Assembly: GCF_002831685.1 (NCBI RefSeq)
Contig: NZ_CP025119.1
Span: forward strand, 1,585,001 to 1,649,000
Length of the DNA: 64,000 bases
Source: Polaribacter sp. ALD11
GTDB taxonomy: Bacteria; Bacteroidota; Bacteroidia; Flavobacteriales; Flavobacteriaceae
Direction of reading: 5' to 3'
Position numbers and translations under genes: made by a program. Under the pieces are notes generated by a model, which had not been told where the DNA came from, searched no databases, and saw only the letters and a list, made by a program, of their open reading frames with translations. Of the stretch, positions 18,852-45,774 are shown piece after piece. How positions within the stretch are numbered: position 1 is the stretch's first letter; every line of letters starts with the position of its first letter.

Positions 18852-18854
18852 TTT

Positions 18855-19970
18855 CTAAAACTTTCTTTGTACTATTTTATGCATGTTTATCGTATTAGAG
18901 GTGTTAATATTAAAACCAACCACACCTAAAACCAAACCTTCTTCTGTAATTACTTCCACCTTCCATTCTCCATCAATTATATTATTTTTAAAACTATAGC
19001 CTCGATAACCATTATCTCTACCACCCGTAATTTCAAAACCAATTTTATCTAAATTTTGCCACTCATCAGTATTCGTATTATACCATTTCCATTGATGATA
19101 AATTTTCTTTTTTAAATCTGTAGGCGCAAATATGGATGTAAATATATATACAGGCTTGTTCAGGTTTCTATTAAAATCAATTTTATGGTCTCGCCAAAAA
19201 ACATACCATTCATCAACTTCATAAGAAACGGTATAATTGCCATTTTCTATTTTAATATTATGTGCTACCAACCCTTTATCTAATGCCAAAGGAACAGGAG
19301 GAATCAACCTAAAATAATAAAATGTATTAATTAACAGATAGATACTAAATATTAAACCAATCATTTTCCATTTTACCATTTCGGTTCTGGTTGAATAACT
19401 ATTTCGATACACTAGAATAATTAGTAAAAAAGTAGAAATTAAACTTATAAAGCCTGAAATAATAAAAATTTCAGTGCTCATTTTTTTTAAAATAACTGGA
19501 ACAAAAAAGCTTAAAAAAGTAAAGTTCACAAAATAATAGGCGCCAAACTGAAGGTATTTATTAGAAATTCTTTTTTTAAAAAATTCATTTGCAAACAGTA
19601 AAAAAAGAAGAATTAAAAAGAAGGAAGCTGTTTTAGATAAAGAAACACTTCTAGAAAAGTAAATTACATAAGCACTTGTAAGGCCTCCTAAAAAAAACTG
19701 AATTCCAAGCGGAAGATAAGCTTCATATTTTCTAAATAAGGTGTTTTTCCATTTGTCTCCATCTACCAAGTTATAAATATAAATACTAATAGTTAATAGT
19801 GTCATGTAAGTACACAGAATTACAATATCATAGAATCTGTCTATTCTACCTAACGTAAGAGAATCCCAAACAAAACCACCTATAAAAAATAAAAGTGGTG
19901 CATATTTTTGATGTTTTTTTACCTGTTTATAAAAGTAAGATTCTTTATATTTTATTCTTTTCTTAATCAT
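18855..19970 (-). CDS. DUF2914-domain membrane protein
   Basis: A 371-residue protein. The first ~220 residues form about seven transmembrane helices. The last ~140 residues are an extracytoplasmic beta domain with the DUF2914 features IYHQWKWYNTNTDEW and GGRDNGYRGYSFK followed by GEWKVEVITEEG. The domain occurs alone or after membrane segments in many bacteria and has no assigned activity. It is convergent with the sigma factor operon, with only three bases between the stops. Confidence 0.82.
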   Translation of the reverse strand: MIKKRIKYKESYFYKQVKKHQKYAPLLFFIGGFVWDSLTLGRIDRFYDIVILCTYMTLLTISIYIYNLVDGDKWKNTLFRKYEAYLPLGIQFFLGGLTSAYVIYFSRSVSLSKTASFFLILLFLLFANEFFKKRISNKYLQFGAYYFVNFTFLSFFVPVILKKMSTEIFIISGFISLISTFLLIILVYRNSYSTRTEMVKWKMIGLIFSIYLLINTFYYFRLIPPVPLALDKGLVAHNIKIENGNYTVSYEVDEWYVFWRDHKIDFNRNLNKPVYIFTSIFAPTDLKKKIYHQWKWYNTNTDEWQNLDKIGFEITGGRDNGYRGYSFKNNIIDGEWKVEVITEEGLVLGVVGFNINTSNTINMHKIVQRKF

Positions 19971-25711: not shown

Positions 25712-25744
25712 AACGCAATCATTAATTTGATTGCGTTTTTTTTT
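25712..25744. terminator. Terminator T1 (shared sequence, first copy)
   Basis: Stem AACGCAATCA / TGATTGCGTT, loop TTAATT, then a T run. The same 26-base hairpin recurs at 32211 and 41424. This copy ends dnaK and marks the left border of the first signalling module. Confidence 0.85.
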
Positions 25745-25769
25745 GTTTAAAGAACTAAAAAAGTAAAAA

Positions 25770-25800
25770 CCATTCATTACTGTAAATGCTCCTTTCACTA
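25770..25800 (+). promoter_or_regulatory. Operator A1: 21-bp-spaced direct repeat upstream of sensor kinase 1
   Basis: Half-sites CCATTCATTA (25770) and CCTTTCACTA (25791) are repeated at exactly 21 bp, two turns of B-DNA, the arrangement bound by LytTR regulators. The downstream half-site ends 23 bases before the -7 box. It resembles operator A2 upstream of this module's secreted protein gene. Confidence 0.6.
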
Positions 25801-25823
25801 AAAAAACAAAGATGAAAACCATA

Positions 25824-25831
25824 TAAATTTG
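25824..25831 (+). promoter_or_regulatory. -7 box of sensor kinase 1
   Basis: TAAATTTG, a perfect TAnnTTTG, 24 bases before the TTG start and 23 bases after operator A1. A canonical -33 element is not obvious, consistent with an activator-dependent promoter. Confidence 0.5.
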
Positions 25832-25855
25832 TAGATTTATGTCCAAAAAAAGTTT

Positions 25856-28744
25856 TTGAAATTTATACAACTCTTTTATCTCATATTTCTTGTCCACTTT
25901 ACTATTAAAGCACAAGAACCAGTATCTATTCATCTTACAGAAAAAGATGGGCTTCCAGATATTGAGTTTTACTCTATGAAAGAAGATTCTAAAGGGTTTA
26001 TTTGGTTTGCTTCAGATAATGGCCTTCATAGATATGATGGTAAAATTTTCAAACAGTTTTCTCATCCTGATAAAAAGGGAAAATCTTTATTCAATTTAAA
26101 ACTAGGCCCAAAAGGAAATATTTGGTGTAATAATATTGCTGGTCAGTTTTTCTTTGTTGATGGTGATAAACTAAAGCTTTTTAAAGATTATCAAAAAGAA
26201 TTAAAGGGACAACTTGCGGATTATAGTTTTTTTAAAAATAATCTTTTAATAAGAAAAATGAATACTATTTTTTGTGTAGATATCGACACAAAAAAAATAG
26301 TAAAAACACTTTTTAATATAGGTACCACCAATATTGGAATTCCATTAGCTAACAAATTTTTATTTATAAATGAAAACAACCATGTAGTTCTCTTAGATTC
26401 TTTATTTAAAACCTCAAACTTCCCTTTAAAAAGTAAAGAAAAACTAAAATTCTTTACACATTTCACTAAATTTAAAGATCAAACCTTAATTGTTTTTAGA
26501 GATAATGTTTTAAACAATTCTCAGTTAATTTTAGTTAATTCAACAAAAAGAAATACTACTGAAATTAAGCTTCCAAAAGAAATTATAAACTCTAAAATAG
26601 ATAGAGTTACAGTAATAAACAACAATCTATATTTAGCGACAAACAAAGGGGTTTTTATTACTACTTATAAAAATAAAGAATTAAATATTAAAACGCATTA
26701 TCTAAAAAATGAAATTGTTACAGATATAATAGAAGATAAAAATAATAATGTTTGGGTTTCTACATTAAAAAACGGACTCTACCTTATACCAAATCAACAT
26801 TTAAAACAATTTAATACTTTTAACGATGTACAGATAATTGAAAAAAAGAACGATTCTGTCTGTTTTTTAGCTAAAAGAGATGGAAATCTGTTAGAACTAA
26901 ATATATATACCAATACACTAACACCAATTCATCTAAATGATAAAACACCTATAAGAGCTTTAGAGTATAATTCAAAAAACAAAAAACTTTTATACGCATC
27001 AGATTATCAAAATTTAATTTATACTGAAAAAAATAATAAAAGAGATTATTTAAATAAGTTAGGAGCAGTAAAATCAGTTGCATTTATAAACGATTCTACA
27101 TATCTAATAAGTAACCATTCTGGTACAACTATTACTCGTTTAAAAAAAGAAAAAAGAATAACAAATGTTAGATCTCATGAATCTATTTACTCTTCTTTTA
27201 ATAATAAAATATACTTAGCAGACATAGAAGGTTTAAAAGTTTTCGATAGTAAATACCAGCAACTACCTAGTATAACTTTTAAAAACAAACCTATTTATGG
27301 TTTTAATATTATAGAAACTTCTAATGGTATTATTTGGGTGGCCACTTACGATAATGGTATTTTAGGAATTAAAAATGATACCGTTATTTTTAATTTAAAT
27401 AAAACTAATGGTTTAGCATCTAATGTTATAAACTGCATAGCAGCAGATAATGAAACCTTGTGGATTTCTACAAATAATGGTTTACAATACTATAACAGCA
27501 TAGTAAATGAAATAAAAAGTCTTACAAAACAAGATGGTATAAATTCTTATAAAATTAAAGATATAGAAGTATTAAAAAACCAAGTACTTTATACGAACAA
27601 CATGGGTGTTTATGGTTTTAATAAAAACAAAATTTTTAAAGAAAGAGCAACACCAGATATCTATATAACTAATATTTTCATACAAGGAAAACCAGTAGAA
27701 GTTAAAAAGAAGTATGTATTAGCACATAACAAAAGTAGTGTAGATATTAGTTTTAATACAAAAGAGTTTCAATCTATAAAACATATATTATATGAATACA
27801 AACTTAGCAAAGATAAAACTTGGTCTGCATTAAGAGAAGACGTAGATTTTGTTAAGTTTATTAGCTTAGCACCTGGTAAGTTCCAGTTTCAACTTAGAGC
27901 TAAAAATAGGTTTGGTAAAAAATATTCTGAAATAGTAGAAATAAATTTTGAAGTACTTGCTCCTTTTTACCAAAGGTGGTGGTTTTTAATATTAATTACA
28001 ATTATATTAATTGCACTTGCAGTATTTTACACGCAAACAAAAACAAAACGATTAAAAAAAATACAAGCAAAAGAATTAGAAAAAGAAAGAATAAGTAAAG
28101 CTTTAGTTTTTTCTCAATTAGAGAACTTAAGATCTCAGATGAATCCTCATTTTATCTTTAATGCACTAAACTCTATTCAGGATTATATTATTTTAAATGA
28201 AAAAAAATTAGCAAGACAGTTTTTAGTAAAATTCTCTAGATTAATTCGCATTTATTTAGAACATAGCCAAGAAACTAATATTACTTTAGAAGAAGAAATT
28301 AGAGCTTTAAAACTATATTTAGAATTAGAAAAAGACAGATTTAATGATAATCTTATTTTTTCTATTTCTATTGATGATAATATTCGAACACAATCTACTT
28401 ATGTGCCTTCTTTATTTATTCAACCTTATGTAGAAAATGCTTTAAAACATGGGTTATTACATAAAGAAAATAACAAGGTTTTAAATTTAAGCTTCTCTTT
28501 AAGTTCATCAACAAAAAAAATAATATGCATTATTGATGATAATGGCATTGGAAGAACTGCTTCAGAAAAAATAAAAAGTAGAATTAAATTACCAAAATCT
28601 TTTGCTACACAAGCAAATCGAAAGAGAATAGATTTAATTAACTCTACTAATTCAGAAAAAATAGAGATAGAAATAATAGATAAAAAAGATAGTAATAATA
28701 CACCAGAAGGTACTAAAATAATTATTAAAATACCAATACAATAA
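25856..28744 (+). CDS. Propeller-sensor histidine kinase 1 (LytS-type)
   Basis: A 962-residue membrane kinase using a TTG start, after which KFIQLFYLIFLVHFTIKAQ is a signal peptide. Residues ~20-620 form a two-component regulator propeller of periplasmic seven-bladed type with repeated IWFASDNGLHRYDG / IWVATYDNGILG blades. A Y_Y_Y domain (~625-700) and one membrane helix (~708-728) follow. The cytoplasmic part is LytS-like, with phosphorylatable His765 in MNPHFIFNALNSIQ and the ATPase segments IQPYVENALKHG and DDNGIGR. There is no fused regulator. The LytTR regulator gene follows four bases later. It is a clear paralog of the kinase at 32431. Confidence 0.92.
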   Translation: MKFIQLFYLIFLVHFTIKAQEPVSIHLTEKDGLPDIEFYSMKEDSKGFIWFASDNGLHRYDGKIFKQFSHPDKKGKSLFNLKLGPKGNIWCNNIAGQFFFVDGDKLKLFKDYQKELKGQLADYSFFKNNLLIRKMNTIFCVDIDTKKIVKTLFNIGTTNIGIPLANKFLFINENNHVVLLDSLFKTSNFPLKSKEKLKFFTHFTKFKDQTLIVFRDNVLNNSQLILVNSTKRNTTEIKLPKEIINSKIDRVTVINNNLYLATNKGVFITTYKNKELNIKTHYLKNEIVTDIIEDKNNNVWVSTLKNGLYLIPNQHLKQFNTFNDVQIIEKKNDSVCFLAKRDGNLLELNIYTNTLTPIHLNDKTPIRALEYNSKNKKLLYASDYQNLIYTEKNNKRDYLNKLGAVKSVAFINDSTYLISNHSGTTITRLKKEKRITNVRSHESIYSSFNNKIYLADIEGLKVFDSKYQQLPSITFKNKPIYGFNIIETSNGIIWVATYDNGILGIKNDTVIFNLNKTNGLASNVINCIAADNETLWISTNNGLQYYNSIVNEIKSLTKQDGINSYKIKDIEVLKNQVLYTNNMGVYGFNKNKIFKERATPDIYITNIFIQGKPVEVKKKYVLAHNKSSVDISFNTKEFQSIKHILYEYKLSKDKTWSALREDVDFVKFISLAPGKFQFQLRAKNRFGKKYSEIVEINFEVLAPFYQRWWFLILITIILIALAVFYTQTKTKRLKKIQAKELEKERISKALVFSQLENLRSQMNPHFIFNALNSIQDYIILNEKKLARQFLVKFSRLIRIYLEHSQETNITLEEEIRALKLYLELEKDRFNDNLIFSISIDDNIRTQSTYVPSLFIQPYVENALKHGLLHKENNKVLNLSFSLSSSTKKIICIIDDNGIGRTASEKIKSRIKLPKSFATQANRKRIDLINSTNSEKIEIEIIDKKDSNNTPEGTKIIIKIPIQ

Positions 28745-28748
28745 GTTT

Positions 28749-29501
28749 ATGAAAGTTTTAATTATAGACGACGAAAGCCATGCAAGAAATGTTTTAGCAA
28801 CTTTGTTAGTTGAAGAATGCACTGGTGTTAAATATATTTACCAAGCATCTAACCTTAGTGAAGGTGTATCTATTATTAAATCTAAAAAACCCCAATTGGT
28901 ACTATTAGATATAGAAATGCCACAACAATCTGGCTTAGAAATTTTAGATTATTTTAAAGCAGAACCCATAGATTTTAAAATTGTTTTTACAACTGCTTAC
29001 AATCAATATGCAATAGAAGCTTTTAAAACCTCTGCTATAGATTATTTATTAAAACCTATAGATTCAGACGAACTTATATCTGCTGTAAATAAAGTAGAAG
29101 TAATTTCTGAAAAATCTTTTGTAAAACAGAAAATAATAACTTTAGAAAAATCTTTTCAGCAATTGGCAATTAATAAAATTGCTTTAGAATTACCAAAAGG
29201 AATAAAATTTATATCATACGATAAAATACTTTTTTTTGAAGCAGACGGTGTTTATACTAAAGTACATTTAATTAGTGGTACAACAGAAATAATTTGTAAA
29301 ACATTAAAGCATTTTACAGATCAATTAATTGATAAATCGATGTTTTACAAACCTCATCGTTCATTCTTAATAAATCTAAAATTTATGGATGAACTAGTAA
29401 AAAAAGATGGTTTACATGTTGTAATGCAAAACAAAAGAACAATTCCAATAGCTAGGGATAGAAAAGAAGCTTTTTTAGAAATGATAAACCGCATATTTTA
29501 A
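28749..29501 (+). CDS. LytTR-family response regulator 1
   Basis: A 250-residue regulator. The receiver domain (1-~115) has phospho-acceptor Asp54 in LLDIEMPQ, Thr82 and Lys102 (YLLKPID). The C-terminal LytTR DNA-binding domain (~150-250) has ILFFEADGVYTKVHL, KPHRSFLINL and IPIARDRKEAFL. LytTR domains bind direct repeats about two helical turns apart, which are present upstream of both the kinase gene (A1) and the secreted protein gene (A2). It is co-transcribed with kinase 1. Confidence 0.93.
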   Translation: MKVLIIDDESHARNVLATLLVEECTGVKYIYQASNLSEGVSIIKSKKPQLVLLDIEMPQQSGLEILDYFKAEPIDFKIVFTTAYNQYAIEAFKTSAIDYLLKPIDSDELISAVNKVEVISEKSFVKQKIITLEKSFQQLAINKIALELPKGIKFISYDKILFFEADGVYTKVHLISGTTEIICKTLKHFTDQLIDKSMFYKPHRSFLINLKFMDELVKKDGLHVVMQNKRTIPIARDRKEAFLEMINRIF

Positions 29502-29520
29502 TTTCTTTCTTAAAAAAACA

Positions 29521-29551
29521 CCATTCACTAAAAAAATAGTACGGTTCACTA
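29521..29551 (+). promoter_or_regulatory. Operator A2: 21-bp-spaced direct repeat upstream of secreted protein 1
   Basis: Half-sites CCATTCACTA (29521) and CGGTTCACTA (29542) share TTCACTA at exactly 21 bp spacing. Possible -7 elements downstream are TACTTTTT at 29574 or CATTTTTG at 29583, both imperfect. Confidence 0.6.
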
Positions 29552-29615
29552 AATAGTTTATAAAACCTTCTAGTACTTTTTTCATTTTTGTTCTAATAAA
29601 CTAAAAAAAGAAAAA

Positions 29616-32177
29616 ATGAAAACAAAATTATTTTTATTACTACTTTTAATAAGTAGTGTAACATTTGCACAAAACTGGTCTCAAGTTGGTGCTGCACAAT
29701 TTACCAATTTTGCCTCTGATGGAGCTATTGCAACACACCCAACAACAGGTGAGGCTTATGTTGCAATTATAGAACCTTTAAGTTCTAGTAAAATTTCTGT
29801 TCAAAAATTTGATGGTAGTAATTGGGTAGCTCAAGGAGCATTAGTTGGTTTAAATGCAGCAAATATTGCCTTGCAAATAAACCACAACAACAACCAACCA
29901 ATTGTAGCTTATAGAGACACAACAGATTCTACTTTGTATGTGTATACTTTTGATGGCACAACTTGGACTTTAGAGTTTAACCATAATGTGGTTTTAGCAG
30001 ACCTTAAAGTACAAATTCAATTTAATACTTCTGGAGATATAAGAGTTTCTGGTTATGAAATAACAAGCAAAAAATTTGTTGTTATTGAAAAAAAATCTGC
30101 AGGAACTTTAAATAAATTAAATGGTCCAAAATACAACAGTGAAAATAATGGAAGTCTATTTGATTATAATTCCTTTGATAAATTTTATATCGCCCATAAA
30201 GTAGCTCAAACTCGAAATTTGTGGAATATTGCTAAATTATCAATCGATAGTTATGCTGCTACAGATTTTAGAATATCACCAGACACTTATCGTGGAGAAA
30301 GTCTTACTTTAACAAATGTTTCTGGAATTTCTGATAATAATTATGTTGCTGCATATGATATTACAAACAAATATGACAGCAACCAGAATCTATACCCTGC
30401 AAATGAAATAGTAGTTTATAATGGCAGTACATTTATTAAAAGAATAGATGCAGCTAATGATATTGTACAATTTAGAAAAAACTTTGTAGATAATAAGTTA
30501 TATATAATGTATGCAGACAAAAACACAGAAAATATTGTTTTTGAAAGCTTTAATTCTTACATAGGTATTTGGTCTACTTTACCAGATACTGGAATAACTA
30601 GTAATAGTAGTAACTTTTTTATTAATATGGCAATAGATAAAGTGAATGGTAATTTGTATGCTTTATATTTAGATGGCGTAAAAGCTTCAGTTAGAAAATT
30701 CACTATTATTCCTCCTGTAAATCAGCCAATAATTTATGTTGATAAAAATGCGACAGGAAACAACAATGGTAGTTCTTGGGCAAACGCAAGCTCTAGTATT
30801 CAATATGCATTAGAAAACATAGGAAGTTTAACAACCGAAATTTGGATTGCAAAAGGAACCTATACTCCAGATGCTTCTGATAGAGCAAAATCTTTCAATA
30901 TAATCTCTAACAATAGTTTAAAAATATACGGTGGTTTTGCAGGTACAGAAACTTCAATAACACAAAGAGATATTGCAAATAACCCAACCATTTTCTCAGG
31001 AGATTTAAATGGAGATGATGCAGGTGCAGTTTCTTTTAGCAATACCACAAAAGCAGATAACAGCTATAATATTGTAAAAGTTGGTGGAGAAGATGTTGTA
31101 TTAGACGGTATTACTATTGCCAATGCAAACGGAAATGGATCTACAAGTGCATTACAAGAAGGGAGTGCTGTTACGGTATTGCCAAGCGTAAAAAAAATAA
31201 CATTAAATAATTGTACACTAACAGGAAATGTAGTTACTCGTGCAGGTGTTGTTAGTGCTATAGATGGTACTGGTAATGTAGCTATTACGTTTTCTAACTC
31301 AACCTTTAAAAATAATTTAGCAAAATTTTCTACAGTACTTTATAGTAGGCCTAATTCAGCCAGAACACTTACTTTTAATAGTGTAAACTCATTATATGCC
31401 AATAATACTGTAGATAACGTTAATGGATCGGGGATGTTTTGGTTTAGAAATGATGCAGGTACTTGTACAATAAATACTTCATTTACCAATGATACTTTTG
31501 TTAATAACACCATAAATCGTACTCCTTCCGCAGGAAATGATGTTTCGGTTATAGATATAGGGCAAACCAAAGGAACTATTAAAATAAATGTAGATAACAC
31601 TATATTTTGGAACAACACAGACGGAAACAGCGCTATAGTTCCTGCAATCGGTAGAAATGGTAATAATGGGTATCCTCCAGTAACAAACATATTAGTTAAT
31701 AATAGTTTAGATGCAGATGGTTTTTCTAAAGTAACATATAAACAAAATATAGTACTTACCGACCCATTGTTTACAAGTGCTACAGATTTTAGTTTACAAG
31801 CAAATTCACCTGCAATTAACACAGGAGATAATGCTAAATTGCCTACAGATATTAATGCAGATATACTTGGTAATTCAAGAATATTTGATACAACTGTAGA
31901 TCTAGGAGCATATGAATTTGGATCATCTGCAGTTGCAGGAATAGCAACTTTAAGTAAAATAGATTTCTCTGTATATCCTAACCCAACAAACGGAATTGTA
32001 AATATTAAAACTGATGAAAATATAAAACTAATAGAAGTATTTAATTTACAAGGTCAAAAAGCAGCTTCTAGTAAATTTAAAAAACTAAATATCAACTCTT
32101 TAAATTCAGGAATTTATTTTATTAAAATAACTACAGACAAAAATTTAGTCGGTATCAAAAAAATTGTGAAGAAATAG
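29616..32177 (+). CDS. Type IX-secreted surface protein 1 with parallel beta-helix region
   Basis: An 853-residue exported protein. The signal peptide MKTKLFLLLLLISSVTFAQ is cleaved near residue 19. Residues ~20-365 are beta-rich with a repeated WxxVG/FDGSxW pattern, perhaps a propeller. Residues ~372-770 start with YVDKNATGNNNGSSWANA and IYGGFAGTET, typical of right-handed beta-helix (choice-of-anchor) surface proteins. The last ~75 residues are a type A type IX sorting domain (FSVYPNPTNGIVNI, GIYFIKITT). The product should be exported and anchored outside. It lies directly after regulator 1, behind operator A2. Adhesion or polymer binding is an inference; no catalytic residues are apparent. 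Confidence 0.85.
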   Translation: MKTKLFLLLLLISSVTFAQNWSQVGAAQFTNFASDGAIATHPTTGEAYVAIIEPLSSSKISVQKFDGSNWVAQGALVGLNAANIALQINHNNNQPIVAYRDTTDSTLYVYTFDGTTWTLEFNHNVVLADLKVQIQFNTSGDIRVSGYEITSKKFVVIEKKSAGTLNKLNGPKYNSENNGSLFDYNSFDKFYIAHKVAQTRNLWNIAKLSIDSYAATDFRISPDTYRGESLTLTNVSGISDNNYVAAYDITNKYDSNQNLYPANEIVVYNGSTFIKRIDAANDIVQFRKNFVDNKLYIMYADKNTENIVFESFNSYIGIWSTLPDTGITSNSSNFFINMAIDKVNGNLYALYLDGVKASVRKFTIIPPVNQPIIYVDKNATGNNNGSSWANASSSIQYALENIGSLTTEIWIAKGTYTPDASDRAKSFNIISNNSLKIYGGFAGTETSITQRDIANNPTIFSGDLNGDDAGAVSFSNTTKADNSYNIVKVGGEDVVLDGITIANANGNGSTSALQEGSAVTVLPSVKKITLNNCTLTGNVVTRAGVVSAIDGTGNVAITFSNSTFKNNLAKFSTVLYSRPNSARTLTFNSVNSLYANNTVDNVNGSGMFWFRNDAGTCTINTSFTNDTFVNNTINRTPSAGNDVSVIDIGQTKGTIKINVDNTIFWNNTDGNSAIVPAIGRNGNNGYPPVTNILVNNSLDADGFSKVTYKQNIVLTDPLFTSATDFSLQANSPAINTGDNAKLPTDINADILGNSRIFDTTVDLGAYEFGSSAVAGIATLSKIDFSVYPNPTNGIVNIKTDENIKLIEVFNLQGQKAASSKFKKLNINSLNSGIYFIKITTDKNLVGIKKIVKK

Positions 32178-32210
32178 TATTTCCTCACAGAAAAAGAAAA
32201 AGTTATTTAA

Positions 32211-32242
32211 AACGCAATCATTAATTTGATTGCGTTTTTTTT
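32211..32242. terminator. Terminator T2 (shared sequence, second copy)
   Basis: The same stem AACGCAATCA / TGATTGCGTT and loop TTAATT as T1 and T3, followed by eight T. It separates module 1 from module 2. The preceding TTATTTAA is also shared with T3 (ATTATTTAA). Confidence 0.85.
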
Positions 32243-32266
32243 GTAAAAAAAAAATATTTGAAACCT

Positions 32267-32303
32267 TTAGGAAGTAATTTAGTAGTATTCGGAAATTATT
32301 TAG
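32267..32303 (+). promoter_or_regulatory. Operator B1: 21-bp-spaced direct repeat upstream of sensor kinase 2
   Basis: Half-sites TTAGGAAGTAATTTAG (32267) and TTCGGAAATTATTTAG (32288) agree at 13 of 16 bases with 21-bp spacing. This is the clearest of the five operators. Its sequence differs from the module 1 half-site but matches B2 and B3. Confidence 0.65.
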
Positions 32304-32415
32304 ACTACTTTATTTTTAATAAACTAATTTTTGCAATGCATTAATTTTTTCAATAAAAATGAACAAAAGATTCGTTTATTATTTATTTGAAACTTATTTA
32401 CTCAAATTAAAAATG

Positions 32416-32423
32416 TAGTTTTG
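32416..32423 (+). promoter_or_regulatory. Possible -7 box of sensor kinase 2
   Basis: TAGTTTTG, a perfect TAnnTTTG, lies seven bases before the GTG start. A weaker element near 32326 is better spaced from operator B1, so two starts are possible. Confidence 0.35.
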
Positions 32424-32430
32424 ATTTATT

Positions 32431-35328
32431 GTGAAGTATATACATCTATTAATTCTTTTAATACTCTTATTTGCAAATAAAAATGCAAAAGCTCAACACC
32501 CTATATTTACTCACCTAACAGAGAAAGATGGGTTACCAGATATTGAGTTTTATGATATTGTAGAAGACTCACAAGGTTTTATTTGGTTAGCAGCAAACAA
32601 AGGGCTTTTTCGTTATGATGGAAAGGAGTTTAAAAACTACACGCACCCAGATAAACAAGGACTTTCAGTATTTGGTTTAAAAATAGATTCGACAGGTAAG
32701 TTATGGTGTAATAATATTTCAGACCAATTCTTCTACATTAAAAATGATGAGCTAATTCTTTTTACAAGTCTAGAGGAAGGAGATAGCAGTAATTTTTTAA
32801 CTACTTTTTCATTCTATCAAAATAAAATAGTAGTCAGTACAAAATCTGGTTTTATAGAAATTGATATAAATACTTTAAAAAAAACGCGTTTATTTGACAG
32901 TAAGACATCTTTTCTTGACTTTCAGGTAAGAAATGATACTGTTATTTTTTTAGAAGGTGACGATTTAAAAATTGTTTCAAAAAATAAAAAAAAAATTATA
33001 AAAGAGTCTTTCTATAAATATAATAAGTCTAGTTATAATAAATGGACGTTAAGTTCTTTTAATAAAAAAAACTTAATATACGCTTATAATAGTAATGGCT
33101 TAAAACCGAAACCAAAACCGAAGCTATTTTACGAAGAATTTAATCGCTTAAAAGAATTTAGTTTACCAAAGAATCTAGAAAACAATATTGTTATTAAATT
33201 TGTTGAAATAGACGATAAGTTGTGGGTATGTACATACGGAGGAGTATTTGTATATCGTTTTAAAAAAGGAAAATTTCAATTAGAAAACACTTATTTTAAA
33301 GAGAAAGCAATAACAGGTATTTTAAAAGATAGAAATAATAACTATTGGATTACTAGTCTAAGGGATGGTGTCTATATAATTCCTAATATTAATATTGAAA
33401 AATACGATTTAGAACCAAATAAAACCAATATAAGTGCAATGAGTCGTCTTGGAAACAACGCTCTTATTTTTGGTTCTACAAAAGGAGATATTGCTATTTT
33501 AAATGTAAAAACAAATAAGCTAAAATTTAAAAAAAATAACTTAAAAGAAAAAGTTTTTTCAATCGCTGAAGGAAGTGAAAAAGTTTTTTTAAGTTTAAAT
33601 GGATCTTTTTTAATTTATGATAAAAAGAAAGATAAATTTTATAAAGATAAATTGGGGCATAATGCAAAAGACTTATCTTACTTAGGCGACAACCTTTTAT
33701 TACGACCTTCTCATCAATCTACAACTATTATAAATACAAAAGATAAAAATGTAACTTATTTAAATAGAAATAGGGCATACACCAGTTATTACAATCGTAA
33801 AGAAAAAGAAATTTATGTTGGTACTATAACTGGCCTTAAAAAGTACGATGAAGATTATATTTCCTCTAAAATCACGTTTAATAATAAACCGATTTTTGCA
33901 ATTGATATAGATAAAACCGATGATAGTACTATTTGGATATCTACATTTAAAGATGGATTAATAGGAGTAAAAAAAAATAAAGAAACAATTAATTATACAA
34001 ATAAAAATGGATTGTTATCAAATAGACTAGGTAAAATAAAAGGAGATGGTAATTTACTTTGGATTTCAAACGATAAAGGTTTACAGGTATTAAATACAAT
34101 AACAGGTACCTTTAAAAATTTAACTCAAAAAGATGGTTTAAATTCTTTAAATATTTCTGAAATAATTCCTTTTAAAAATGAATTATTTCTTAGTTCCAAC
34201 AAGGGCCTTTTTAAATTAAATAAAGAAAAAGCATTTAAAAAAAGAACTATTTACGATTTCTATTTTAAAAATATTTTAGTTGACAACGTTGAAGTACCAG
34301 AGAAAGAAAAATACGAATTAAATTCAAGTGTAAAAAAAATAGAATTTAACTTTCATAATAATGGTTTTTTATCTGAAGATAATTTAATCTATCAATACAA
34401 ATTAATAGACGCCTCAAACAACTCTAAATGGAACAATCTTGAAGTAAAAGCAAGTCAATTAATATTTAACAACTTGGCAGCTGATAATTATACATTAAAA
34501 CTTAGAGCAACTGATATAAACGAGAATAAAACAACTACCATTAAATCTATTAAAATAATAGTTAAACCACCTTTTTATAAGGAATGGTGGTTTAGATTAA
34601 GTCTTATTTTGTTGGTAACTGCTATTGTTAGGCACCTTTCTAATTTAAGAGTAAAAAAGATACGATTAAGGCAAAAAGAACTTTTAGAAAAAGAGCAAAT
34701 CCAAAAACAACTCGTTTATTCAAAGCTAAAAAATTTACAATCACAAATGAACCCTCATTTTACTTTTAACGCTTTAAATTCAATTCAGAATTTAGTTTTA
34801 AAAGGAAATAAACATGATGCTTATGATTACTTAACTAAGTTTTCTTTACTGATAAGAGAAAATTTAAATATGAGTGAAAAAAGTTTTGTTACGGTAGAAG
34901 AAGAAATAAAAATGCTAACAAAATATCTAGAATTAGAACAGTTAAGGTTTCGTGATAATTTCGAATATGATATAAATTTAATAAATGATATTTCAGAAAT
35001 AAAAATACCAACAATGATTATTCAGCCTTATGTTGAAAATGCAATAAAACATGGCCTGTTGAATAAGCAAGAAGGTAGACGAAAACTATTGTTAAGTTTT
35101 AAAAAATCAGTTACGTCTTTAATATGCATCGTTGAAGATAATGGTGTTGGTATTGAGAAAGCAAAGGAAATTAATAAAAACAAGCAACACTATAAAAAGT
35201 CTTTTTCTACAGGTGCAATAGAAGAAAAAATGATTTTTTTAAAAGAATATTATAAAACCGATATAGGTATTACTTACCAAAAAGTACAAGAAGGCACCAG
35301 AGTAGTTATAAAAATACCCTATAACTAA
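32431..35328 (+). CDS. Propeller-sensor histidine kinase 2 (LytS-type)
   Basis: A 965-residue paralog of kinase 1 with a GTG start and signal peptide (KYIHLLILLILLFANKNAKAQ). The opening HLTEKDGLPDIEFY is identical to kinase 1. A periplasmic propeller (~25-630), Y_Y_Y domain, one membrane helix (~715-735) and a LytS-type kinase follow. The His box is MNPHFTFNALNSIQ with His776; the residue after HF is Thr where Leu, Ile or Val is usual. IQPYVENAIKHG and EDNGVG form the ATP site. It has no adjacent regulator of its own: the next gene is a second kinase, so the LytTR regulator at 36695 probably serves both. Confidence 0.9.
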   Translation: MKYIHLLILLILLFANKNAKAQHPIFTHLTEKDGLPDIEFYDIVEDSQGFIWLAANKGLFRYDGKEFKNYTHPDKQGLSVFGLKIDSTGKLWCNNISDQFFYIKNDELILFTSLEEGDSSNFLTTFSFYQNKIVVSTKSGFIEIDINTLKKTRLFDSKTSFLDFQVRNDTVIFLEGDDLKIVSKNKKKIIKESFYKYNKSSYNKWTLSSFNKKNLIYAYNSNGLKPKPKPKLFYEEFNRLKEFSLPKNLENNIVIKFVEIDDKLWVCTYGGVFVYRFKKGKFQLENTYFKEKAITGILKDRNNNYWITSLRDGVYIIPNINIEKYDLEPNKTNISAMSRLGNNALIFGSTKGDIAILNVKTNKLKFKKNNLKEKVFSIAEGSEKVFLSLNGSFLIYDKKKDKFYKDKLGHNAKDLSYLGDNLLLRPSHQSTTIINTKDKNVTYLNRNRAYTSYYNRKEKEIYVGTITGLKKYDEDYISSKITFNNKPIFAIDIDKTDDSTIWISTFKDGLIGVKKNKETINYTNKNGLLSNRLGKIKGDGNLLWISNDKGLQVLNTITGTFKNLTQKDGLNSLNISEIIPFKNELFLSSNKGLFKLNKEKAFKKRTIYDFYFKNILVDNVEVPEKEKYELNSSVKKIEFNFHNNGFLSEDNLIYQYKLIDASNNSKWNNLEVKASQLIFNNLAADNYTLKLRATDINENKTTTIKSIKIIVKPPFYKEWWFRLSLILLVTAIVRHLSNLRVKKIRLRQKELLEKEQIQKQLVYSKLKNLQSQMNPHFTFNALNSIQNLVLKGNKHDAYDYLTKFSLLIRENLNMSEKSFVTVEEEIKMLTKYLELEQLRFRDNFEYDINLINDISEIKIPTMIIQPYVENAIKHGLLNKQEGRRKLLLSFKKSVTSLICIVEDNGVGIEKAKEINKNKQHYKKSFSTGAIEEKMIFLKEYYKTDIGITYQKVQEGTRVVIKIPYN

Positions 35329-35337
35329 AATATTTTT

Positions 35338-35374
35338 CTGGGAAACTATTTAAAATAGTTCGGAAATTCTATTC
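35338..35374 (+). promoter_or_regulatory. Operator B2: 21-bp-spaced direct repeat upstream of short kinase 3
   Basis: Half-sites CTGGGAAACTATTTAA (35338) and TTCGGAAATTCTATTC (35359) are spaced at 21 bp and fit the B-type pattern (GGAAA-Y-T). A -7-like TAACTTTA begins 23 bases after the second half-site at 35397. Confidence 0.55.
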
Positions 35375-35457
35375 TTAAAATTTAAGACTAAAAAAGTAAC
35401 TTTAACTAAAGTCGCTTTTTCAGTATATTATACACAAGGGTGTTTACACTTATATAA

Positions 35458-36693
35458 ATGAAAATAAATTTCGATAGTATATTTAATATTGGTCTAAATA
35501 AAATCAATTCAGTAAAAGAAAATAAAAGAATAAAACTCTTAAACTTTTTTTGTTTTACATGGTGTCTTATGATACCGACAATTACTCTCTTCGACCTATT
35601 TTTTAAAAGAGAATTAAAAAGCAGTTTAGTATTACATGGAATTTCTTATGTTATAATATTTTTTATTTTTTATTTTCAAAAGAAAAGATATTACATTATT
35701 GCAAGAGTACTGTTTCTATCTGCTATAATAGTAATAACCTATGTTTTTTCTAATTATACAACACCATTAAACCTTATTGAAAATTTTTATTTTATTTATC
35801 CCTTAGTGGCACTTATTTTAATTGAAGAGAAATGGATAAATATAAGTATTCTAATACTTTGTTTTATCTTGTATTTTGTTCCTAACTTGTATTTTAAACA
35901 CTATCCTGAAGGAATGATTTTACCTATATTAGTATTTTGTGCTTTTTCAGGTGCTTTTATTATTCTAAATTACTCTGATAGTATAAATAGAAAAAATGAA
36001 AAAGAATTATTAAAAAACAAAAAAGAATTGCAACAGGCTTATTTAGAATTAGAAGAAGCTAAAAAAATTGAATTATCGAATTTCCAATTAAAAGCATTAA
36101 AAGCTCAAATGAATCCTCATTTTTTATTTAATGCTATTAACTCAATTCAAAATTTGATTTTAAAAGACAATAAACAAGAGGCTTATAACTACCTTACTAA
36201 ATTTTCTTCTCTAATGAGAGATAACCTTAACACTAGCGAGAAAAGCTTTGTCTCTTTTAAAAAAGAACTATCTATGTTAAAAAAATATTTAGAATTAGAG
36301 AAATTACGTTTCGGAGCATTGTTTACCTACCAAATAATTGGAACAGAAAAAATAGAGAACATAGAAATTCCCTCTATGGTTATACAGCCTTTTATAGAAA
36401 ATTCTTTAAGATATAGTCTACTTCATAAAAAAGAAGGAAGTAAAAAAATTAGCATCGATTTTTTTCAAGAAGATTTTTTAAAATGTATTATTGAAGACAA
36501 TGGTATTGGTTTTGAAGCTTTGAAAAATATTAAAAACATTCATCAAAGTAAAGTAGTTACAAATTCCTTAAATGACAACATTAACAAAAGATTAGTTCTA
36601 TTAAAAGAGCTCTACAATATTGAGATAGATTATACATATGAAGATGTCATAGAAGGCACTAGAGTTATTTTAAAAATTCCTTTTACAAAATAA
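35458..36693 (+). CDS. Membrane histidine kinase 3 (LytS-type, no propeller)
   Basis: A 411-residue kinase. The first ~175 residues form about five transmembrane helices with almost no periplasmic domain. A coiled segment (~180-210, rich in K/E/L) leads to the His box MNPHFLFNAINSIQ with His221, then IQPFIENSLRY and EDNGIGFE. Where kinase 2 has ENAIKHG, this one has ENSLRYS. Its catalytic part is close to kinase 2 (LTKFS, MSEKSFV / TSEKSFV). It is one base ahead of regulator 2 and behind operator B2. Confidence 0.88.
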   Translation: MKINFDSIFNIGLNKINSVKENKRIKLLNFFCFTWCLMIPTITLFDLFFKRELKSSLVLHGISYVIIFFIFYFQKKRYYIIARVLFLSAIIVITYVFSNYTTPLNLIENFYFIYPLVALILIEEKWINISILILCFILYFVPNLYFKHYPEGMILPILVFCAFSGAFIILNYSDSINRKNEKELLKNKKELQQAYLELEEAKKIELSNFQLKALKAQMNPHFLFNAINSIQNLILKDNKQEAYNYLTKFSSLMRDNLNTSEKSFVSFKKELSMLKKYLELEKLRFGALFTYQIIGTEKIENIEIPSMVIQPFIENSLRYSLLHKKEGSKKISIDFFQEDFLKCIIEDNGIGFEALKNIKNIHQSKVVTNSLNDNINKRLVLLKELYNIEIDYTYEDVIEGTRVILKIPFTK

Positions 36694-36694
36694 T

Positions 36695-37435
36695 ATGAAT
36701 GTAATAAATGCAATTATTATTGATGATGAAGTAAATGCGTGCGAAAATTTACGCTATTTATTAACCGAATTTTGTAAAAATATTACAATAGTTTCTGAAG
36801 CAAAAAATGTAGACGATGCTATCATTCAAATAAATAAACACAAACCTCAACTTATTTTTCTAGATATAGAAATGCCACAAAAAAATGGCTTTCAACTGTT
36901 AGATGCTTTTACCAATATTAATTTTCAAATAATATTTGTAACAGCTTATGATAAATATGCTATTAAGGCTTTTGAAGTTTCTGCTATAGATTACCTTTTA
37001 AAACCTATAGATATAAATAGGCTTCAAAAAGCGGTAGAAAAAGTATCTAAATTATTAATTAGTGGAAAAAAAAATAACAAGTTAGACCTCTTAAATGATA
37101 ACAGAGAAAAAATACAAAAAATCGCAATTCCTTATAAAAGCGATTATGTAATTGTAAACCTTAGAGATATTCTATGTATAGAAGCAGACAGGATGTACAC
37201 TATAATTCATACAATTAATGGTAAAAAATATGTTGCTGCAAAAAAACTAAGTTATTACGAAGACCTACTTTGTAAAGAACAAGATTTTTTAAGAACACAT
37301 AGATCATGGATTGTAAATACCTCTGCTATAGAAATGTATTCTAAAAAAGATAAAAAAATTCAATTAAAAAATGAATTTGAAATACCTATTAGTAAAAGTT
37401 ACAAAGAAAAATTTGAAGCTATTTTCTTCACTTAA
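36695..37435 (+). CDS. LytTR-family response regulator 2
   Basis: A 246-residue paralog of regulator 1. The receiver has Asp57 in FLDIEMPQKNG, Thr83 and Lys103 (YLLKPIDI). The LytTR domain has ILCIEADRMYTIIHT, RTHRSWIVNT and IPISKSYKEKFE. Recognition-region residues differ from regulator 1 (RSWIVNT against RSFLINL), in line with the different operator sequence. It starts one base after kinase 3. Confidence 0.92.
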   Translation: MNVINAIIIDDEVNACENLRYLLTEFCKNITIVSEAKNVDDAIIQINKHKPQLIFLDIEMPQKNGFQLLDAFTNINFQIIFVTAYDKYAIKAFEVSAIDYLLKPIDINRLQKAVEKVSKLLISGKKNNKLDLLNDNREKIQKIAIPYKSDYVIVNLRDILCIEADRMYTIIHTINGKKYVAAKKLSYYEDLLCKEQDFLRTHRSWIVNTSAIEMYSKKDKKIQLKNEFEIPISKSYKEKFEAIFFT

Positions 37436-37442
37436 AAATACA

Positions 37443-37479
37443 TTCGGAAACTAAAACAAATCACTCGGAACTTATTTAA
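37443..37479 (+). promoter_or_regulatory. Operator B3: 21-bp-spaced direct repeat upstream of secreted protein 2
   Basis: Half-sites TTCGGAAACTAAAACA (37443) and CTCGGAACTTATTTAA (37464) share CGGAA at 21-bp spacing, immediately after the regulator 2 stop. A -7-like TAGCTTTT at 37497 follows. Confidence 0.55.
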
Positions 37480-37535
37480 TATTCTTTACAAGCAAATAGC
37501 TTTTTTTTACTTCACATTAATCAAAAATAAATGTT

Positions 37536-40500
37536 ATGAAGAAAAAAATACTTATGCTATCGCTATTAATTAGTAGCTTTATGAATGCTCAGTTTCCTAC
37601 CTCCGATATTCTAGTTCAATATGGGTTTGATAATGGAAGTTTAGTTACAGACGGGGTAAACGGAAATAATTTAACGCATACAGGCACTCCTTTTACAGAA
37701 GTTAATGATCGTTTTGGAAATGCTCCAACAAGTGCATTACAGCTTAACGGAAGCTCCTTAAGTAGTAACTTCTCGTTTCCGAATACTACAACAGATACTA
37801 GCCTTAGTTTTTGGGTAAAAACAACTACAAACTCTAACGATACAAAGATTATTTTAGAGAAAAGTGCAAGAGCAAGTACTACTGCAGTTGGTTGGGGAGG
37901 ACTTTCGATAAGACTAGAAGAAGGCAAAATTAGAGTAGAAGCTGGTTATCAATTTACGTATTATAATGGTGCAACATCAGTAGTAAAACATAGTATTCTT
38001 TCTAATGCAATTATAAGCGATGGTAACTGGCATCACTTAGTTGTCTCTATTTATAATAGATCAGATAATGTTGGCACTAGTAAAGGTATAAACAATGTTA
38101 TAAAAATTTACGTAGACGGAACTATAGATAGTAACAACACAAAAAATAACCGCCCAAGAACATTCCAAAATAGACAACTTAAAGTAACCAACGGGCATGC
38201 AAATGGAAATCTTTTTGTACTTGGAAATTTAAGAAACGGTGCAGCTCCAAATAATGGCAGATATGAAGATGTTATTGATGACGTACTTGTTTATAAAAGA
38301 TTACTTACAGATGCAGAAATTAATAGTATTGGAGACTACAATAATTTTTGTAAAGAAATAAGTAACACTTACTTGTCTGCGACTAACATTACAGGTACAA
38401 ATATGGATGTAAAAATTTCTGGTACACAAACTGTAGATATTGCATACCATAAAGCCTCCGAGCCTTTTTCAAATGCAACTATTACTACAGGTGTTTCTGG
38501 TGGATCTACGATTTCTATTTCTAGTACAGTAGCAGAAACTTACAATGTATATATTAGAAAAAATTGTGGAACAGGTAGCTTTTCTACATGGTCTTACCCA
38601 GTTGTATTTAAAAACTTAGGATTACCTACTTTTGTAAAATCTGATGCTACAGGCAATAACAATGGTAGTAACTGGGCAAATGCATATACAAATTTAGACA
38701 ATGCAATTACAAATACACTTGCAGGTGAAGAGATTTGGATGGCAGCTGGTACTTACAAACCTCATACTTCTAATAGAACTGTTTACTACACAATAAATAA
38801 AAAAGATTTAAGAATTTATGGTGGTTTTATAGGTACAGAAACAACACGTAATCAAAGAGATTTTATAGCAAACAAAACTATTTTATCTGGTGATTTACAA
38901 GCAAATGATGTTAATGTTACCGATTATGCTAATAATTACGCAAATACTACTAGAAATGCAGATAATAGCCATCATATTATTAACGTAACTGCAACAGGAA
39001 ATAATTTATTATTAGATGGTTTAATTATTAGTGATGCTCATAATAATTTAAGTGGTACAGAAAGAGGTGGTGCAATAGTTAAAGAAAAAACGGTAACGAA
39101 ATTAAGTATAAAAAACTGTATCATTAAAAACAATGTTTCTAGAAATGACAATGCAGGTTTAATAGCAGAATTCGAATTAAATAACACCTCAGGAGATAGA
39201 GGAACTTTAATTATTGAAAACTCTCAATTTATTAACAATATGTCACGTTGGGCAAGTGGTATTTATAGTTTTGTAAGAGCCAATACAAATGTTGATATCA
39301 CTGTGGCAAACTCTTTGTTTGATGGTAATTTAGCAGGAGATTTAAGTTCAACAGTAAAAGGACTAGGAGGAAGCGCATCTTGGATTAGAGTTATTGACAA
39401 TACGTCTAACGTTTCACTAAAATTAACAAATAATACGTATGTAAACAATTTAGATTTAGGTACAGACCAATCATTAAACAATTTTAGTAGAGCTACAGTA
39501 GCTATTAGTAAACAACCAGGAATTAGTAGTACATTTAATGCAACTGTTAATAACTGTATTTTTTGGGATAATACTACAGTTGGTGGCGCAAAAACAAGAT
39601 CTATTACAGATTTATACAAAAATCCTTTAAATTCGTTAGTTGTTAATAATTCTATTGATTCCTATAATTTTAATGATGATAGTATAAGTAGTAAAGTTGC
39701 AACAGCTACAGCAGATCCATTATTTGTAAGTCCAACAGATTTTTCATTACAAGCAACATCACCTGCAATAAATGCAGGAAATAACATTTATTTTTTCGGA
39801 AATACAGACATTTTAAGAAACGATAGAATATTTAACACAACAATAGATATAGGTGCTTATGAATATGGTTCTCCTGTTTCTACGTCAAAAATATTAAAAA
39901 TAAATTCTATAAATGGATCCGTAACTAGTAATTCAAATCCAAACCCTATAAACGGAGCTTATAATGATGGAAGTGTTGTAGCCTTAACAGCAATACCAAA
40001 CACTGGATATCAATTTGATGGTTGGTCTGGAAATGCTACAGGAACTACAAACCCAATTAATGTTACTTTAGATGAAGATAAAATAGTTACAGCAAATTTT
40101 AGTCAACTAAAACATATATTAACTGTTACATCTACAAACGGAGTAGTAACAAGTAACCCATTTCCAATAAATGGTACTTATATTCATAACACTGTGGTCA
40201 CCTTAACAGCAACTCCAAATGCTGGATATCAATTTGATGGTTGGTCTGGAGATGTAAGTGGTTACACAAATTCTATTAATGTAACTATGGATGCCGTTAA
40301 AAATATAGCAGCTAACTTTAGTATAATCTGTATTTTAAATACACCTGATACTAATTTTAAAAATGCACTATTAAATAATGCCACAAATATTGATTTAAAT
40401 AATGATGGCCAAATACAATGTACAGAAGCAAATGCTTTTAGTGGAGCTTTAACTATAACTTACAGGAATATTACAGATTTAACAGGAATAGAGGCATTTA

Positions 40501-41393
40501 CAAAAATGACCAAATTTACAGTAGACAGAAACAAATTAACTTCTATAGATTTATCTAATAACACCGCTTTAGTAGAAATCGATTGCTCGCAACAAGCAGC
40601 AAGTTTAACAACATTAATATTACCACAAACCGCAACGTTAACTAAGTTAGTTTGTTTTAATAATAAATTAACTGCGCTAGATTTATCTAACACCCCTAAT
40701 TTAACTGAAGTAAACTGTAGAATAAATCAAATAGTATCTTTAAATACTACTGGTTTAACAAAACTAATAAAGTTAGATGCTCAAATAAATAAGATAACAA
40801 GTTTAGATCTTTCTACAAATACAAGCTTAAAAGAATTAGTTTGTAATGATAATGAGCTTACTGCTCTTGATGTTACTTATAATTCATCATTAATAACTCT
40901 TCGACTTTATAAAACATTAATTACTAGTTTAGATGTATCTCAAAACCCTGTTTTAACTTATTTATTTATTAGAAATAGTAAATTAATCAATTTAAATGTA
41001 GCCAATGGTAATAATTCAAATTTCACTTATATGGGTACAGATGGAAACCCAGATTTAACTTGTATTCAAATAGACGCTGGTTTTACTCCGGCTTCACCAA
41101 TATGGAACAAAGATATTACCGCTAATTATAGTACAAACTGTAATGCAACAGCAAGTATTTCTGATGAGAATAGAGTTGATTTTTTAATACAACCAAATCC
41201 TACAAACGGGATTGTAAATATTAAAATTGATGAAAACATTAGGTCGATTGAAGTTTACAATTTAAGAGGACAAAAAGTAAAGAGTTCTTTAAGTAAAGAG
41301 TTAAATATTAGCAACTTAAATTCTGGAATTTACTTTGTTAAAATAACTACAGAAACAAACCAAATAGGAATGAGAAAAATTATAAAAAAATAG
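37536..41393 (+). CDS. Type IX-secreted surface protein 2 (LamG-like, beta-helix, InlB-type repeats, leucine-rich repeats)
   Basis: A 1285-residue exported protein with signal peptide MKKKILMLSLLISSFMNAQ. Domains in order: a LamG/ConA-like lectin domain (~20-250); a linker of fibronectin-like strands (~265-360); a beta-helix region (~365-785, TGNNNGSNWANA, IYGGFIGTET) homologous to secreted protein 1; two InlB B-type repeats (~788-930, near-identical TGYQFDGWSG / AGYQFDGWSG); leucine-rich repeats (~935-1200, LTSIDLSNNTAL); and a type IX sorting domain (~1208-1285, FLIQPNPTNGIVNI). This is an adhesin-like layout with glycan- and protein-binding parts. It is the presumed output of kinases 2/3 and regulator 2. 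Confidence 0.87.
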   Translation: MKKKILMLSLLISSFMNAQFPTSDILVQYGFDNGSLVTDGVNGNNLTHTGTPFTEVNDRFGNAPTSALQLNGSSLSSNFSFPNTTTDTSLSFWVKTTTNSNDTKIILEKSARASTTAVGWGGLSIRLEEGKIRVEAGYQFTYYNGATSVVKHSILSNAIISDGNWHHLVVSIYNRSDNVGTSKGINNVIKIYVDGTIDSNNTKNNRPRTFQNRQLKVTNGHANGNLFVLGNLRNGAAPNNGRYEDVIDDVLVYKRLLTDAEINSIGDYNNFCKEISNTYLSATNITGTNMDVKISGTQTVDIAYHKASEPFSNATITTGVSGGSTISISSTVAETYNVYIRKNCGTGSFSTWSYPVVFKNLGLPTFVKSDATGNNNGSNWANAYTNLDNAITNTLAGEEIWMAAGTYKPHTSNRTVYYTINKKDLRIYGGFIGTETTRNQRDFIANKTILSGDLQANDVNVTDYANNYANTTRNADNSHHIINVTATGNNLLLDGLIISDAHNNLSGTERGGAIVKEKTVTKLSIKNCIIKNNVSRNDNAGLIAEFELNNTSGDRGTLIIENSQFINNMSRWASGIYSFVRANTNVDITVANSLFDGNLAGDLSSTVKGLGGSASWIRVIDNTSNVSLKLTNNTYVNNLDLGTDQSLNNFSRATVAISKQPGISSTFNATVNNCIFWDNTTVGGAKTRSITDLYKNPLNSLVVNNSIDSYNFNDDSISSKVATATADPLFVSPTDFSLQATSPAINAGNNIYFFGNTDILRNDRIFNTTIDIGAYEYGSPVSTSKILKINSINGSVTSNSNPNPINGAYNDGSVVALTAIPNTGYQFDGWSGNATGTTNPINVTLDEDKIVTANFSQLKHILTVTSTNGVVTSNPFPINGTYIHNTVVTLTATPNAGYQFDGWSGDVSGYTNSINVTMDAVKNIAANFSIICILNTPDTNFKNALLNNATNIDLNNDGQIQCTEANAFSGALTITYRNITDLTGIEAFTKMTKFTVDRNKLTSIDLSNNTALVEIDCSQQAASLTTLILPQTATLTKLVCFNNKLTALDLSNTPNLTEVNCRINQIVSLNTTGLTKLIKLDAQINKITSLDLSTNTSLKELVCNDNELTALDVTYNSSLITLRLYKTLITSLDVSQNPVLTYLFIRNSKLINLNVANGNNSNFTYMGTDGNPDLTCIQIDAGFTPASPIWNKDITANYSTNCNATASISDENRVDFLIQPNPTNGIVNIKIDENIRSIEVYNLRGQKVKSSLSKELNISNLNSGIYFVKITTETNQIGMRKIIKK

Positions 41394-41423
41394 GTTCAAA
41401 AAAAGAGAGAAAGTATTATTTAA

Positions 41424-41454
41424 AACGCAATCATTAATTTGATTGCGTTTTTTT
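41424..41454. terminator. Terminator T3 (shared sequence, third copy)
   Basis: The same stem and loop as T1 and T2, with seven T. It marks the right border of module 2. Confidence 0.85.
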
Positions 41455-45672: not shown

Positions 45673-45774
45673 TTCATTTTTACAATTCATCATTTAAAAA
45701 TTACAACTCGGTATTTGTTTTTATTTTATAATAAAACAACGCTACATCTTTGTATCATCAAAAACCAACTACTG

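Follow-up and report, generated by a model that had tools for sequence, protein, structure and literature searches.

The interval between dnaK and ndh in Polaribacter sp. ALD11 holds two neighbouring gene units, each composed of a propeller-bearing LytS-type histidine kinase, a REC-LytTR response regulator and a protein predicted to be secreted by the type IX system. We consider it probable that they constitute two insulated sense-and-display circuits at one variable chromosomal site, in which sensing, phosphotransfer, unit-specific DNA binding and activation of the surface protein and kinase genes follow one another. A periplasmic propeller, seconded in unit 2 by the membrane sensor of an additional kinase called K3, would control a LytS-type kinase, which would phosphorylate the adjoining regulator. 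The latter would bind the pair of half-sites, spaced by 21 bp, that belongs to its own unit and would activate, rather than repress, the gene encoding a single type IX-secreted surface protein. In the present genome it would also activate the kinase genes, creating a positive loop. Each unit, with an operator of its own as insulation, would then be a loop leading from a putative extracellular ligand to the display of one surface protein. This reading appears well supported by comparison between genomes and is carried by the gene content of the units, by unit-specific phased repeats at five promoters and by a recurrent linkage.

Coordinates refer to the window, the whole 64-kb stretch analysed from this complete genome of 3.57 Mb, and all features of the locus lie on its forward strand. 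The first unit is preceded, 3' of dnaK, by an exact 26-nt copy of a terminator hairpin (25712..25737). Its kinase, K1 (25856..28744), carries Reg_prop and Y_Y_Y propeller domains and a His_kinase domain (9.7e-22), and is followed by the regulator R1 (28749..29501; Pfam REC and LytTR) and by S1 (29616..32177), in which a propeller and a beta-helix with a choice-of-anchor Q domain (choice_anch_Q) precede a type A sorting tail (Por_Secre_tail, 1.3e-12). A second match to the hairpin lies 3' of S1 (32211..32236). In the second unit, K2 (32431..35328) has Reg_prop and His_kinase (2.7e-23) matches, Y_Y_Y being unmatched. Between K2 and the regulator R2 (36695..37435; Pfam REC and LytTR) stands K3 (35458..36693), a LytS-type kinase of 411 aa (His_kinase, 1.4e-24) whose sensor half is helical and membrane-like and which lacks a propeller. 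S2 (37536..41393) combines Laminin_G_3, a beta-helix with choice_anch_Q, two InlB-type repeats, an LRR domain and a type A Por_Secre_tail, and a third hairpin match follows it (41424..41449). The predicted structures of K3 and S1 reach pLDDT values of 86.5 and 79.4, respectively, the latter with fold matches. A kinase with PF06580 adjoins a regulator with REC and LytTR domains in both units (K1-R1 and K2-K3-R2). The preliminary description of this DNA had proposed two tandem units of propeller kinase, LytTR regulator and type IX protein, and the profile matches confirm that gene order and domain content; its limits, 25712..41454, coincide with the first and third terminator copies. The three parts are indeed present in both units, although the third kinase of unit 2, K3, had been missed.

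Kinases and regulators had also been described as paralogous between the units, and K1 and K2 share 34% identity over 971 columns, R1 and R2 38.5% over 244. The same claim for the secreted proteins holds in part: S1 and S2 are 37% identical over 455 columns of the beta-helix and 59% identical over the last 88 residues, whereas their N-terminal domains differ. Both match Por_Secre_tail and TIGR04183 above the cut-offs, the C-terminal type A sorting domain scoring 48.2 bits in S1 and 50.5 bits in S2 against a curated cut-off of 27. The genome encodes the type IX component SprA (2419 bits) and contains 31 type IX tail matches, 30 of them above cut-off. Among its 18 LytTR matches, R1 and R2 are the only ones found within 5 kb of any of the 31 tails, the chance of a random place in the genome lying at most 5 kb from a tail match being 0.08.

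The units differ in the short repeats placed before their genes. Two copies of an [AG]TTCACTAA-like half-site, 21 bp apart, precede K1 and S1, and two copies of a TTCGGAA-like half-site at the same spacing precede K2, K3 and S2. These five phased repeats match the two-repeat LytTR operator rule, published sites being described as two direct repeats of 9-11 nt with a spacer of 11-13 nt (PMC4847170). Two operator models were built without the window sequence, the R2 model from the 25 of 35 promoters that passed the seed threshold in 13 relatives carrying an R2-type unit and the R1 model from ten sites in five relatives, and both were scanned over the two strands of the window. The three best sites of the R2 model are the candidate operators 5' of S2 (37441..37474, score 31.2), K2 (32265..32298, 27.8) and K3 (35336..35369, 18.3), ahead of a next site at 12.8. 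Similarly, the R1 model ranks first the candidate operator 5' of S1 (29522..29555, 33.3) and second that 5' of K1 (25771..25804, 17.0), the next site scoring 13.7. No cross-hits occur between the two models among these top sites. Because S2 of two relatives that feed the R2 model, L078 and L079, is more than 90% identical to S2 of the window, the match at the S2 promoter is not fully independent. Genome-wide, the only exact match to the R1 pattern is the S1 promoter. The window operators are marked by their position, not by pattern alone.

The 21-bp spacing recurs in genomic regions of relatives (designated L and a number). A scan in which no motif was chosen recorded any 9-mer that recurs, with 8 or more positions matching, at spacings of 10-44. 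Of 89 unit promoters from the window, L002 and the 40 regions L063-L102, 32 carry such a repeat at 21 bp and 0-4 at any other spacing. In an independent set of 68 promoters from 40 family-level regions the repeat occurs in 29 at 21 bp and in 0-6 at the remaining spacings. The repeat is found in 41 of 64 promoters lying directly after a regulator. Within a cluster, the promoter of the first kinase resembles that of the output gene (likeness 12.84 against 11.28 after permutation, sd 0.27, 0/20000), as measured in the 32 of 44 clusters in which the promoters of both genes were usable. The LytTR domains of 30 regulators were aligned against operator class; the classes follow kinship, and we therefore make no claim on LytTR residues tied to operator class. 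The same 21-bp repeat was also encountered before other genes. In L073, a second R2-like regulator without a kinase (18686-19429) is followed by a gene of 107 aa (19531-19854) whose promoter carries it, and in other Flavobacteriaceae (L113, L114, L116, L117, L119, L130 and others) it stands in the promoter of a conserved gene encoding about 405 aa and located between regulator and surface protein.

The position of the repeats bears on the sign of the regulation. The regulators might act as repressors of both the kinase and the surface protein genes, with the signal lifting this repression, and a precedent exists in CoxC, a repressor of the LytTR type with repeats overlapping the -35 box (PMC11347149). 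Promoter elements are moreover not placeable here: a -7-like motif, of the flavobacterial kind, lies downstream of the operator in only 8 of the 41 repeat-bearing promoters. However, the same source indicates that LytTR regulators mostly bind upstream of -35 and activate (PMC11347149), and in 32 of the 41 promoters the distance from the end of the operator to the listed start codon is 56-70 nt, enough for a promoter to fit in between. We regard repression as unlikely.

The linkage of the parts was followed at two levels. In the genus, 50 of 97 genomes matched K2 used as query at 1e-40, and the 40 regions fetched, together with the window and L002, supplied 40 full-length propeller kinases (>800 aa). 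In the family, 45 of 299 genomes matched K1 at 1e-60 and 40 regions were fetched. All 80 full-length propeller kinases (40/40 in each set) are encoded next to a LytTR regulator. A type IX tail or a relative of S1 or S2 lies immediately downstream in 16 of the 40 genus clusters and within three co-directional genes in 21, or 23 when the gene just upstream is admitted; the corresponding counts for the 40 family clusters are 17, 28 and 28. Pooled, 49 of 80 clusters have a type IX-type gene among the next three downstream, against a background of 12 among 373 ORFs (minimum 150 aa) from those regions (4/211 genus, 8/162 family), counts that are not independent since the family set includes clear orthologues (among L113-L133). 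The preliminary description had staked its proposal in part on conserved linkage in other genomes, and this linkage recurs. As a fixed formula the three-part unit fares less well, relatives often having additional parts (K3 or arrays of up to five K3-like genes) and often fewer: in 17 of the 40 clusters of the genus set and 12 of the 40 of the family set, the places tested contain no type IX-type gene. Clusters of the latter kind often have alongside them a gene of about 340 aa, secreted-looking and with an 'SGCG' end, or a gene of 105 aa. The 340-aa protein adjoins the kinase-regulator pair in L081, L083, L085, L087-L089 and L121, where it makes a second output type.

Several results weigh against two insulated activating circuits. 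The K1 site of the window departs from the R1 pattern at 3 positions and is weak by pattern alone. R2-type pairs with one mismatch number 8 genome-wide, as does the reversed control; two of these eight precede K2 and S2. With three mismatches the figures are 591 and 549, and the use of the R2 operator as a genome-wide marker was rejected for want of a clear excess. Among 107 control promoters from the same regions, 7 have a repeat at 21 bp, 8 at 20 bp and 0-6 elsewhere. Some clusters depart from the within-cluster likeness of promoters, L082 ranking last of 32, L095 23rd, L066 16th and L067 15th. The seed threshold was passed by 13 of 13 promoters before K3-like genes and 10 of 12 after R2 in relatives, and by 2 of 10 before K2, so that the presumed positive loop on K2 is not conserved. 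Finally, in 31 of the 80 clusters none of the next three genes downstream is of the type IX type, and two of these clusters have such a gene just upstream.

This last count could also suit regulators acting mainly on themselves or on distant genes, with the surface proteins as passengers of a site that collects diverse cargo; unrelated cargo does occupy the dnaK site in L143, L144-L148 and others. The same linkage is nevertheless found at many other sites, and the output promoter bears the repeat proper to its cluster, both at the top of the window scans and in the promoters directly after regulators. We consider the passenger explanation improbable. The proposal of a signal-to-surface circuit, made in the preliminary description, is retained as a probable cis-acting unit with unit-specific operators that recurs in genus and family.

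The dnaK site itself is variable. An R2-type unit lies 3' of dnaK in 13 of 20 regions (L064-L068, L071-L075, L077-L079; two small genes precede it in L068), and an R1-type unit in L001 and L002. Among 20 further dnaK-site regions, chosen for having the terminator, a kinase-R2-S2-like unit is present in L146 and a K3-like gene unaccompanied by a regulator in L149 and L150, and L151 and L153-L156 (five regions, empty of units) have only gene X between dnaK and ndh. Both unit types occur together only in the window among the regions examined. Each unit type thus stands alone at the site in relatives, some sites are empty, and K1 and K2 share only 34% identity, for which reasons a recent tandem duplication of one unit was ruled out. 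A tandem of another kind was noticed in L082, where two R1-type kinase-regulator pairs follow each other at a distance of about 5 kb, the intervening sequence containing masked bases.

The terminator hairpin AACGCAATCATTAATTTGATTGCGTT has three copies in the genome at two or fewer mismatches, all in the window (25712, 32211, 41424), which rules out a genome-wide repeat. With one mismatch allowed, it is present in 51 of the 97 genus genomes and in more than one copy in five. It is found once at unit-empty sites, as a pair flanking the unit in L001, L002, L078 and L079, and three times in the window. L078 and L079 have a loop variant common to both copies, and in L143 the copies flank unrelated cargo. 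Cargo at the dnaK site thus tends to have copies of the dnaK terminator at its flanks. The terminator-flanked site is possibly a docking place, no recombinase being visible there; domain profiles detected no integrase or transposase among the eight unit proteins scanned, and a mobile cassette with its own recombinase was not found.

Tandem units with related surface proteins could also suggest a switch choosing between two alternative adhesins, and the preliminary description had supposed that the circuit controls which adhesin-like protein is displayed. The top sites of each operator model are, however, confined to its own unit, no invertible or shared element was seen, and relatives have one unit only at the dnaK site. 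With operator types free of cross-hits and nothing seen that couples the units, the choice between adhesins is not supported, and we regard such a switch as very improbable.

The kinases vary between relatives. Between the window and L078, identity reaches 96.2% for dnaK, 91.1% for S2 and 72.8% for R2, and 44.7% for the sole remaining kinase, which is K3-like; L079 is similar. The output can persist while the input changes. K3-like genes before R2 number none in L066, L067, L069 and L072, one in the window, L064, L065 and L075, two in L063, four in L071 and L073 and five in L068. In L077-L079 a propeller kinase is absent and there are one or two K3-like genes; L070 and L074 contain split copies. 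The arrays of four or five tandem membrane kinases precede a single LytTR regulator (L068 5985-12120, L071 6002-10902, L073 5999-11052).

The two halves of these kinases have different histories. Within arrays (24 pairs, five loci), mean identity is 35% for N-terminal halves and 73% for C-terminal halves, against 41% and 63% between loci (252 pairs). The third and fourth kinases of L068 are 35% identical in the sensor half and 99% in the transmitter half, with a step near residue 205. Third-position identity at conserved codons is 0.94 in this pair and 0.58 in L073, indicating an older exchange in the latter. The best partner of an array member lies in its own array for 0 of 17 sensor halves and for 10 of 17 transmitter halves, the other seven including the first genes of the arrays. 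In the tree of sensor halves, sensors of L068 and L071 pair across genomes (one pair with support 100/100, one with 89/77), whereas transmitter halves group by genome (L068 97/96, L071 87/77, L073 100/98); several forks of these trees are unsupported. Such a pattern is the signature of transmitter halves that appear to evolve in concert within a genome while sensor halves do not. The window, with its single K3, has no array and no trace of concerted evolution.

Taken further, these data suggest, tentatively and at somewhat less than even odds, an evolvable multi-input circuit in which regulator and output are kept while inputs are exchanged, lost or multiplied, from one propeller kinase up to a propeller kinase and five membrane kinases. 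Gene conversion would keep the transmitters of an array alike, so that its kinases stay matched to their shared regulator, and would leave sensors distinct and orthologous between species. The dnaK terminator site would dock the units, and different operators would allow them to stand in tandem without cross-talk.

The individual parts belong to known kinds. LytS/LytTR systems such as E. coli YpdA/YpdB share the LytS-type kinase, the REC-LytTR regulator and an operator of two direct repeats (PMC4847170). The present units differ from them by the propeller sensor, several kinases per regulator, a type IX-secreted output and unit-specific repeats at kinase and output promoters. The propeller and Y_Y_Y sensor resembles that of Bacteroides hybrid two-component sensors (ectodomains 4a2l, 3v9f and 3va6), and K1 has 4a2l (E 2.6e-31) and 3v9f among its solved relatives. 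In the hybrid systems of polysaccharide loci, propeller sensor, kinase, receiver and AraC domain form one polypeptide, with a SusC/SusD pair alongside. Here, by contrast, kinase and regulator are separate proteins and LytTR is the DNA-binding domain; K1 and K2 match propeller and kinase only, and no SusD or complete SusC was found among 18 proteins scanned (the eight of the units and 10 neighbours). One TonB-plug protein lies 4 kb downstream of the units (45715-47931).

The best solved match of the K3 kinase half is the kinase domain of Geobacillus GanS (6swj, 6swk; E 9.6e-9), at 23% identity and with another sensor half; 6swj is also matched by K1. The PDB fold search with K3 returned kinases and related proteins among the matches listed, and the literature search found no paper mentioning 6SWJ. 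S1 and S2 resemble other type IX-secreted type A surface proteins in their sorting tails and in the presence of SprA, and differ from them by the dedicated regulator that adjoins. Histidine kinases are known to undergo lineage-specific expansion with acquisition of new sensor domains. The tandem kinase paralogues with differing sensor halves recall this process, whereas the arrays found in relatives have transmitter halves that appear to evolve in concert beside one shared regulator. The PorX/PorY regulators of type IX secretion associate REC with PglZ; R1 and R2, by contrast, match REC and LytTR, PglZ being unmatched in both.

A search of titles and abstracts, with most subscription journals outside its scope, found no published description of the unit, of phased unit-specific operators or of concerted kinase arrays, and papers on the group, in the parts available, mention LytTR as counts or single genes. 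The recurrent arrangement with its phased operators and concerted arrays may be regarded as a variant of LytS/LytTR regulation. If the circuits operate as proposed, Flavobacteriaceae would own a recurrent, self-contained means of coupling one surface protein to a perceived cue, and each copy would have its own insulating operator. The arrays of relatives would represent a natural experiment on the number of sensors able to feed one regulator, and as transmitter halves up to 99% identical lie beside sensor halves about 35% identical, the keeping or sharing of specificity by paralogous kinases becomes directly testable. The 21-bp phased repeat common to kinase and output promoters may offer a route to the targets of other LytTR regulators in the phylum.

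The start codons of the propeller kinases differ from those of the genes beside them. The ORF listing gives TTG for K1 and GTG for K2, and in mechanical ORF lists TTG or GTG starts are assigned to 49 of 79 propeller kinases, 8 of 86 regulators and 5 of 53 surface proteins. A weak start codon might hold the propeller kinase at a low level.

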